Positions 3,135 to 57,105 of a DNA stretch of 64,000 nucleotides are shown here, piece by piece. Numbering within the stretch: position 1 is the stretch's first letter; each line of letters opens with the position of its first letter. The notes below the pieces were generated by a model. It made no database searches and was not told the origin of the DNA. It saw only the letters and a program-made list of their open reading frames with translations. Both the position numbers and the translations under genes were made by a program. The DNA comes from Planctomycetota bacterium (GTDB taxonomy: Bacteria > Planctomycetota > Planctomycetia > JALXBF01), in contig JALXBF010000039.1 of NCBI GenBank assembly GCA_026991575.1, forward strand, positions 1 to 64,000. Direction: 5' to 3'.

Positions 3135-4676
3135 TCAGGTGTTGCCACCGGAACCAGCAACAAGCCGCTCCGGACTGCCAGGACAGTCCTCGTCGCGGCG
3201 CACTCGCCCCAGCGACTGCATAGCTTCGCGCACGTAGCGCGGCAGATAGAACATCCGCTGGTGGGCAAAGCCGTCGTAAAAGCGGGTCGGCTCCGTGAGC
3301 CGCTCGGCCAGCAAGCGGTCCACCTCCTCGACCGATAGCGACAAGGGCGATCGCAGCGACTCGTCACCCGCGATGGTAAACGACCAATCGGTGGTGAACG
3401 ACGGCATGTACGTGGCACCGACGTGCACCGTGGGGAACACCTCGCGGATGGTACGGTAGATGGTGGCGAAGCTGGTCAGGCCGTACAGCGAGACCGCGTC
3501 CGACTGCACGACCACGACGCCCCCGGGGTTCAGGATGCCGCGGACCTTCTCGTAGAACTCGACCGTGAACAGCCGTGCTGAGAGGCTGTCGCCGATCGGG
3601 TTGGTCAGATCGAGCACGACGGCATCGAACTGTTCGGTGCAGTTCTCCACGTACGCGCGACCGTCGCCAAAGTGGAATCGGACGGCCGGGTGATCGAACG
3701 CACCGGCGTGGAAGCCGGGCAGGTACCGCCGGCAGGCTTCGACCACCTGGGGATCCAACTCCGCCATGATGACCCGTTCGACGGAACGGTGCTTAAGCAC
3801 CTCGCGGATGGTAGCACCTTCGCCACCCCCTACAACCAGTACGCGCTTAGGGCCCGGGTGCAGCAAGAATGCCGGATGAACCAGGCACTCATGATAGATG
3901 TGCTCGTCGGCCTCGTAGCTCTGCACTTCGCCGTCGAGCACCAGGCACCTGCCGTAGGCTTCCGTCTCGAGGATGTCGATCTCCTGAAACTCACTCCGCT
4001 CGCGGCAGATCTGGCGGCGAATGGCGTGGGCTGTGTACTCCCAGGGGCTAGCCCAGTCGTGAAGCCAGCGATGGGGTCCCCAAGTCTGGCCGATGTACTT
4101 GAACGCTTCGGCCGCACGCCGAGCCCAGTCTTTCATGTCCGGCGGTGGCGGGGTTGTGTCGGCCTGACCGGTGGCGGACTCGTCACCGGCGGACGGCTCG
4201 CCGGCGTAGCCGCCGTTGGGCTGAGCGTTGACGTAAGCGGCGAATTCGGAACCGTTGCCGCGGCCCGCTGCTGCGGAGACGGCGGCCAGGGCCCCGACGC
4301 GGGCTCTACGGCGGCTGATCCGCCGGTAACCGGCGCCTCGAGGCAGTTCGGCCTCCTCAAACCGTTCCGCGCCGAGGGCCCGAGCCAGATGTTCCCGGGC
4401 CAGCCGCGGCGTGAGGCTCTCGCCGCACAAGTACAGATCCATGCTGCAGATCTCGTACTCCGGCCAGGTGTGAATGGCCAGGTGGCTCTGGGCCAACACC
4501 GCAACGACGCTGATACCCATCGGGGCGAAACGGTGGGAGTGGATCCCCAGTACAGTAGCGCCCGCTGCCCGGGCAGCTTCACGGACGTGGTGCCGCAGGT
4601 ACGGCTCATCGTCCAACAACCGGGGGTCACACCCGTAAAGCTCCGAGACCAGTTGTCGACCGAGTAGGATCCCCAC
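3135..4676 (-). CDS. Fusion protein: S-adenosylmethionine decarboxylase-like (SpeD) domain + spermidine synthase-like (SpeE) domain
   Basis: N-term LAQSHLAIHTWPEYEICSMDLYLCG (SpeD processing/active-site region); C-term CLVLDGEVQSYEADEHIYHECLVHPA...VLVVGGGEGATIREVLKH...AELDPQVVEACRRYLP (spermidine synthase). Confidence 0.9.
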   Translation of the reverse strand: MGILLGRQLVSELYGCDPRLLDDEPYLRHHVREAARAAGATVLGIHSHRFAPMGISVVAVLAQSHLAIHTWPEYEICSMDLYLCGESLTPRLAREHLARALGAERFEEAELPRGAGYRRISRRRARVGALAAVSAAAGRGNGSEFAAYVNAQPNGGYAGEPSAGDESATGQADTTPPPPDMKDWARRAAEAFKYIGQTWGPHRWLHDWASPWEYTAHAIRRQICRERSEFQEIDILETEAYGRCLVLDGEVQSYEADEHIYHECLVHPAFLLHPGPKRVLVVGGGEGATIREVLKHRSVERVIMAELDPQVVEACRRYLPGFHAGAFDHPAVRFHFGDGRAYVENCTEQFDAVVLDLTNPIGDSLSARLFTVEFYEKVRGILNPGGVVVVQSDAVSLYGLTSFATIYRTIREVFPTVHVGATYMPSFTTDWSFTIAGDESLRSPLSLSVEEVDRLLAERLTEPTRFYDGFAHQRMFYLPRYVREAMQSLGRVRRDEDCPGSPERLVAGSGGNT

Positions 4677-55409: not shown

Positions 55410-55772
55410 ATGCCGGAGCGATTCGTGCTCATCGCCGGCCGCACGGCGCGGCAAGGGACGACGTTGAACAAGTCGAAGCTGGCGGGGGAGTACCTGGAAG
55501 AAATCTCCACCGTGTACATTGCCCCCGAGGACGCAGAGCGCCTGGGGCTGCGCGACGGCCAGCGGGTACGGCTGAGCAGTGACCACGGGTCCGTAGTGCT
55601 GCGGTGCCGCCGGGCGCGTAAGGACGAGCTGGCACCGGGAGTCTTGTTCCTGCCTTACGGCGATGCTTCCAGCCGACTAATGGGTGCCGACACTCACGGC
55701 ACGGGTATGCCCGACAGCAAAGGGCTTGACGTCGTGCTCGAACCGCTTCCGGACACAACGTCGAGGGGGTGA
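55410..55772 (+). CDS. fwdD: Formylmethanofuran dehydrogenase subunit D-like (molybdopterin dinucleotide-binding domain)
   Basis: FVLIAGRTARQGTTLNKSKLAGEYLEEISTVYIAPEDAERLGLRDGQRVRLSSDHGSVVLR. Confidence 0.82.
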   Translation: MPERFVLIAGRTARQGTTLNKSKLAGEYLEEISTVYIAPEDAERLGLRDGQRVRLSSDHGSVVLRCRRARKDELAPGVLFLPYGDASSRLMGADTHGTGMPDSKGLDVVLEPLPDTTSRG

Positions 55773-55773
55773 T

Positions 55774-57105
55774 ATGTCCGCAGAGAACGGCCGCAAACTG
55801 GTCCGCGATGTGACCTGCACGTTTTGCGGGTGCGTTTGTGATGACATCGTGCTGGAGGTTGAGGGCAACCGGATTGTCAAGGCGCGCAACGCGTGTGTGC
55901 TCGGCACAGCCTGGTTCCTGAACCACGCGCCCGCGACGCTGCCCGCATGCCGGATCGACGGCAAACCGGCACCGCTGCAGGAGGGCATCCGGTTGGCCGC
56001 CGAGATCCTGGCCGAGGCGCGGTATCCGTTAATCTACGGGTTGAGCGACACGACCAGCGAAGCGCAGCGCGTCGCCTGTCGCCTAGCCGACCGCATCGGC
56101 GCCTGCCTCGACACGACCACCTCCGTGTGCCACGGTCCTAGCGGTATGGCCTTTCAGGGCGTAGGCGAAGTGACCTGCACGCTGGGCGAAATCAAGCACC
56201 GCGCGGACCTGGTCGTGTTCTGGGGGTGTAACCCGGCCGAGTCCCATCCGCGCCACTTCACGCGCTACTCGACCATGCCTCGAGGCTTCCTCGTACCGCG
56301 CGGACGGAAGGACCGTACGGTAGTCGTGGTTGACGTGCGCAAGACGAAGAGTGCCGCAGCGGCCGACATCTTCATCCGCATCCGTCCCAGGAGCGACTTC
56401 GAAGCGCTCTGGACGTTACGCGCTCTGGTGCGCGGCCGCCACGTGGACCCTGACGAAGTGACGCGCTTGACCGGCGTTTCGTTCGAAACATGGCGCGAGC
56501 TGGCCGAGCGCATGCGGACCTGTCGTTTTGGCGTGCTGCTGTTCGGAATGGGTCTGTCGATGACGCGGGGCAAGCACTTGAACGTGGCCGCAGCGCTTGC
56601 GCTGGCCCGCGACCTCAACGAGCACGGCCGGTTCGCGGCCAAGCCGATGCGAGGCCACGGGAATGTCACTGGTGCGGACAACGTCGTGGCCTGGCAGACC
56701 GGCTTTCCATTCGGTGTGGGCCTGAACCGGGGCTACCCGCGGTTCAACCCTGGGGAATTCACCGCAACCGATGTGCTCTGTCGGGGCGAAGCGGATGCTG
56801 CGCTGATCATCGCGGCCGACCCGGCGGCGAACTTCGCCGAACCGGCGCGGCAGCACCTGCGGCGCATTCCGGTGATTTCACTCGACCCGAAGGACACGCC
56901 AACGGCCCGCCTGGCCCGGGTCGCTTTCTGCACCGCCCCGTACGGGATCAGCACACCCGGCACGGTCTACCGCATGGACGATGTGCCCATCTACTTGAGG
57001 CCGGCACTGCCGTCACCGCATCCGAGTGACCAGCAGGTGCTTGAGCTCCTGGACCAGGCCGTCGCGGAGGCGCTGCTCCGCCGTACGGGCTCCCCCGTGC
57101 GCTAG
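55774..57105 (+). CDS. fwdB: Formylmethanofuran dehydrogenase subunit B
   Basis: CTFCGCVCDDIVLEVEGNRIVKARNACVLG, TSVCHGPSGMAFQGVGEVTCTLGEIKHRADLVVFWGCNPAESHPRH. Confidence 0.9.
   Translation: MSAENGRKLVRDVTCTFCGCVCDDIVLEVEGNRIVKARNACVLGTAWFLNHAPATLPACRIDGKPAPLQEGIRLAAEILAEARYPLIYGLSDTTSEAQRVACRLADRIGACLDTTTSVCHGPSGMAFQGVGEVTCTLGEIKHRADLVVFWGCNPAESHPRHFTRYSTMPRGFLVPRGRKDRTVVVVDVRKTKSAAAADIFIRIRPRSDFEALWTLRALVRGRHVDPDEVTRLTGVSFETWRELAERMRTCRFGVLLFGMGLSMTRGKHLNVAAALALARDLNEHGRFAAKPMRGHGNVTGADNVVAWQTGFPFGVGLNRGYPRFNPGEFTATDVLCRGEADAALIIAADPAANFAEPARQHLRRIPVISLDPKDTPTARLARVAFCTAPYGISTPGTVYRMDDVPIYLRPALPSPHPSDQQVLELLDQAVAEALLRRTGSPVR

Follow-up and report, generated by a model that had tools for sequence, protein, structure and literature searches.

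A cysteine-type fwdD-fwdB pair in a planctomycete genome, predicted to encode part of a metal-dependent formylmethanofuran dehydrogenase

Accounts of bacterial C1 oxidation via methanofuran usually give a metal-free hydrolase complex as its last step. Redox-type relatives of archaeal formylmethanofuran dehydrogenase have also been described in bacteria. Planctomycete P2 carries a selenocysteine FmdB and an fmdDBAC operon, together with a Cys form (Kim et al. 2016, PMC4807772), and the Hakuba actinobacterial FwdABCD combines a redox-type FwdB with the Wood-Ljungdahl pathway (PMC7325909). A superfamily survey lists bacterial FwdB-family members, and fwdD is stated to be absent from planctomycetes (PMC5020050). 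In the open-licence literature we found no study of a purified bacterial version of the enzyme, and subscription papers may hold more. The fwdD-fwdB pair described here is not new in kind: it belongs, as a cysteine-type member, to a bacterial group that is known but uncharacterised, and the 2016 description of a redox-type planctomycete FwdB reduces the novelty implied by an earlier note on this DNA. What we add is a Cys-type member whose genome has no Fhc-type copy, the type's wide distribution, and its association with cofactor genes.

The pair lies in a 64,000-nucleotide stretch of planctomycete DNA (the window) from a draft genome of 4.96 Mb in 191 contigs (97.8% complete, 0.5% contamination). 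Elsewhere in the window, a 513-aa ORF at 3135-4676 looks by eye like a fusion of S-adenosylmethionine decarboxylase and spermidine synthase. On the forward strand, fwdD (55410-55772; ATG at 55410, TGA at 55770-55772) encodes the 120-aa molybdopterin-dinucleotide-binding subunit of formylmethanofuran dehydrogenase, and fwdB (55774-57105; ATG at 55774, stop at 57103-57105) encodes its 443-aa Mo/W catalytic subunit. One base separates the fwdD stop from the fwdB ATG, as the earlier note had reported. FwdB matched the NCBIfam subunit B model TIGR03129 (E 5.4e-149, 496 bits; cut-off 328) and archaeal FwdB 5T5I chain B (E 9.5e-117), values that rule out chance similarity, and its full-length matches to solved archaeal FwdB chains (E 2e-93 to 1e-116) settle its fold. 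FwdD diverges more than FwdB from known models. It scored 69.5 bits against the strict NCBIfam FwdD model, under the cut-off of 175, but exceeded the cut-off for PF01568 (58 bits; cut-off 26.8) and matched solved archaeal FwdD chains (E 1.8e-19 for 8RJA chain D, to 6.7e-9), which bears out the earlier identification of a separate pterin-binding subunit. Contamination by an archaeal contig can be dismissed, since the rest of the window's genes appear bacterial, and the nearest matches of its FwdB (65-72%) are almost entirely from planctomycete genomes.

All seven key residues of the window FwdB coincide with those of archaeal FwdB in an alignment to the M. wolfeii FwdB of known crystal structure (chain B of 5T5I), which has four cluster ligands, a metal ligand (C118) and an active-site arginine (Arg288). 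C15, C18 and C22 (codons within 55816-55839, forward strand, as for all codons given here) aligned to archaeal C9, C12 and C16, the first three [4Fe-4S] ligands, and C41 (55894-55896), 19 residues past C22, aligned to the fourth, C35. The cluster motif is thus C-x2-C-x3-C plus a distant cysteine (NAC). The earlier note had read CTFCGCVCDDI as the cluster-ligand motif; this stands for C15, C18 and C22, but C20 is an extra, non-ligand cysteine. Its assignment of VCHGPSG to the Mo/W ligand region agrees with the alignment, in which C119 and H120 (56128-56133) fall on the metal ligand Cys118 and on His119. R293 (56650-56652) aligned to the active-site Arg288. His119 and the gate lysine of FwdA are discussed in PMC11656701. 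From these sequence features and the comparisons below, we consider it likely that fwdDB encodes the BD module of a working Mo/W-bisPGD formylmethanofuran dehydrogenase that ends formaldehyde oxidation in CO2 and replaces Fhc.

One alternative, which we regard as unlikely, is an Fhc-like formyltransferase/hydrolase, in which FwdA would give free formate, FwdB and FwdD would serve as scaffold, and a separate formate dehydrogenase would make CO2. A hydrolase complex of this kind is known from M. extorquens, whose Fhc is the bacterial relative that has been characterised. Sequence comparison within the phylum argues against this alternative. Among 392 genomes scanned, 25 had a FwdB above the curated cut-off, and 17 of these had a redox-type protein, with Cys at the metal-ligand codon in eight and an in-frame TGA in nine. 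An Fhc-type copy was also present in seven of the 17 and absent from ten. All 80 loci recovered from named genomes, whose titles are nearly all planctomycete, carried the motifs CTFCGCVC and SVCHG, so that with Sec in nine others the redox clade as sampled is invariant in its cluster and metal ligands. Most planctomycete Fhc-type copies, by contrast, aligned with Gly, Ser or a deletion at the metal-ligand position. This answers in part whether all planctomycete homologs have the residues: in most Fhc-type copies the metal ligand is gone, but a planctomycete FwdB of the redox type had already been described (PMC4807772). Two proteins of the Fhc-type clade (L021 and L023, around 1501-2745) still have Cys where archaeal FwdB has Cys118 and are possible intermediates between dehydrogenase and scaffold. 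Three records titled Euryarchaeota, Nitrospirae and Ardenticatenaceae (L083, L137 and L142) contain closely similar redox-type loci, which may be mislabelled bins or transfers.

The nine TGA genes (L012-L020) carry the TGA exactly at the Cys118 position, followed about 20 nt downstream by a conserved hairpin, and selB was above the cut-off in all nine genomes. Sequencing error was rejected as the cause of a codon shared by nine genomes with the downstream hairpin and selB in all. A selenocysteine ligand would be of use only if the metal site is catalytic. Most of these loci hold fwdD, fwdB, fwdA and fwdC together, with fwdA and fwdC in eight of nine. The source genome of the window also holds selB, yet its FwdB uses Cys. 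In another genome (G266, L054:9117-19208), a stretch of about 9 kb holds both an Fhc-type and a selenocysteine-type fwdB, with the same orientation.

Phylogeny placed the window FwdB with the archaeal and redox-type proteins. In a tree of 51 FwdB sequences, which included five archaeal chains and no proteobacterial FhcB, a branch with 100/99 support parted the redox-type (Cys and Sec) and archaeal proteins from the planctomycete Fhc-type, and the window protein sat outside the Fhc-type clade. Its nearest kin were from Gemmatales and other planctomycete metagenome bins (72%), its own family being absent from the comparison set.

Gene neighbourhoods also differed between the two types, with fwdD and cofactor genes located beside the redox type only. 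We found fwdD next to fwdB at 79 of 96 redox-type loci and at none of the 22 Fhc-type loci, and these predicted genes contradict the published absence of fwdD from planctomycetes (PMC5020050). Six redox-type loci (L044, L045, L047, L081, L083 and L103) had no recognisable fwdD in the fetched flanks; it may be elsewhere or too diverged. Genes for AOR, MoaD, MobA or MoeA occurred in 22 of 52 Cys-type loci of at least 15 kb and in none of the 22 of Fhc type (Fisher p 1.5e-4), although p-values overstate the evidence here, as the loci are inter-related and the redox-type and Fhc-type sets come from different samples. None of these four cofactor genes was found in the nine Sec-type loci. Six Pirellulales loci (L073, L082, L088, L090, L102 and L130) share a neighbourhood of AOR, MoaD-like, fwdDB, fwdA, MobA, fwdC and MoeA-like genes. 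A conserved neighbour family (c18) considered as mch proved to be ftr, since its match in the source genome is the ftr locus. Taken together, the ligand alignment, the split in the tree and the association with fwdD and cofactor genes support the earlier reading of the pair as part of a probable metal-dependent formylmethanofuran dehydrogenase.

The source genome also encodes the A and C subunits and the remaining steps of the pathway. The genes fwdA, fwdC and ftr, correctly placed outside the window by the earlier note, are all on other contigs, and the genome search that it had proposed also found mch, a methylene-H4MPT dehydrogenase gene, fae and Mo/W-cofactor genes. FwdA (contig C6, 723 bits) and FwdC (contig C34, 280 bits) were above their cut-offs; ftr adjoins fwdC, mch is on contig C60, and fae and the methylene-H4MPT dehydrogenase gene are adjacent on contig C36. 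FwdA was closer to archaeal FwdA, whose best three chains scored 494-505 bits, than to M. extorquens FhcA (365 bits), and it has a lysine aligned to Lys64 of archaeal FwdA. On the minus strand of contig C34, the order is moeA, a moeA-PBP fusion, ftr, fwdC and a gene for an Rce1-like protease, and on contig C105 a MobA-like gene comes after one for an AOR-family aldehyde oxidoreductase. The cofactor genes close to fwdC-ftr speak indirectly for a Mo/W-bisPGD in the predicted enzyme. AOR-family aldehyde oxidoreductases are typically tungsten enzymes, and further AOR-family matches occur on other contigs. A weak MoaD-like match (E 6.6e-4) with an internal stop carries no weight. Dispersal of fwdDB, fwdA and fwdC-ftr over three contigs counts against the dehydrogenase reading, and some contig of the 191-contig draft may be wrongly binned.

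The window copy was the sole FwdB in the genome, with neither an Fhc-type FwdB nor a second copy found; two other weak matches in the FwdB search were NapA, a nitrate reductase, and the alpha subunit of a formate dehydrogenase. The genome does encode the alpha subunit of a cytoplasmic formate dehydrogenase (768 bits; cut-off 666), and with this separate enzyme the hydrolytic route via free formate would also be workable. Also in favour of the Fhc-like alternative, no dedicated electron-transfer subunit was noticed near the genes: a search of ORFs around the fwd genes at 20 loci for a ferredoxin-type motif (C..C..C...C) gave no nearby ferredoxin partner. NF042910 was rejected as a model for such a subunit because it is FwdC.

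In the dehydrogenase reading, FwdA, a dinuclear-metal amidohydrolase, would free formate from formyl-methanofuran, and the formate would move inside the complex to the FwdB metal and be oxidised there to CO2. Two electrons would exit via the FwdB [4Fe-4S] cluster to a putative ferredoxin-like acceptor. In this genome, where an Fhc-type FwdB is missing, the fae-mtd-mch-ftr route of formaldehyde oxidation would end in the complex, with CO2 as its direct product. We infer metal content, activity, oxidative direction and electron acceptor, the direction from the presence of fae and mtd in the genome. Since the formylmethanofuran dehydrogenase reaction is reversible, CO2 reduction is conceivable, and a true dehydrogenase might run reductively to fix CO2 into the H4MPT pathway, as its archaeal homologs fix CO2, with AOR-family enzymes, some of which reduce ferredoxin, as a possible source of low-potential electrons and with a precedent in actinobacteria that combine redox-type FwdB and the Wood-Ljungdahl pathway (PMC7325909); we consider this improbable, as adjacent fae and methylene-H4MPT dehydrogenase genes are a formaldehyde-oxidation signature.

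Bacteria that keep the metal-dependent dehydrogenase, with or without the hydrolase version, make the conversion of dehydrogenase to hydrolase directly testable. The same group allows a test of whether bacteria obtain CO2 and low-potential electrons from formyl-methanofuran. More tentatively, and as a scenario we find plausible but somewhat short of probable, the Mo/W formylmethanofuran dehydrogenase might be the only terminal enzyme of H4MPT-dependent formaldehyde oxidation in some planctomycetes, among them the source organism, with its electrons going to a ferredoxin pool that a co-located tungsten aldehyde oxidoreductase also uses, and Fhc might be a derived, metal-free version of a complex whose original form is still at work in these bacteria.

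Compared with known systems, the predicted complex resembles archaeal Fwd/Fmd (5T5I, 8RJA) in its full-length FwdB with all [4Fe-4S] and Mo/W ligands, its separate FwdD, the Lys64-equivalent lysine of its FwdA and the presence of FwdC. It differs in having its genes on three contigs with no FwdF or FwdG seen near them, and in a host with fae and mtd for formaldehyde oxidation. With planctomycete P2 it shares a redox-type FwdB accompanied by FwdD, FwdA and FwdC in a planctomycete, but compared with the selenocysteine FmdB of P2 its ligand is Cys, its genes are dispersed and its genome has no second FwdB. The Hakuba system is likewise bacterial, retains the [4Fe-4S] domain and Cys118 of FwdB, and lacks fwdF and fwdG; it differs in its fwdDBA-ftr-fwdC operon and Wood-Ljungdahl setting, with methanopterin-synthesis genes not seen. 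The Fhc complexes, both M. extorquens FhcABCD (6S6Y) and the planctomycete Fhc-type, share the fold family and the pathway position after Ftr. However, planctomycete Fhc-type loci are without fwdD and have mostly lost the Mo/W ligand, whereas the window pair has both, and M. extorquens FhcB matches the window FwdB weakly (E 7.3e-15) compared with archaeal FwdB (E 2e-93 or better).
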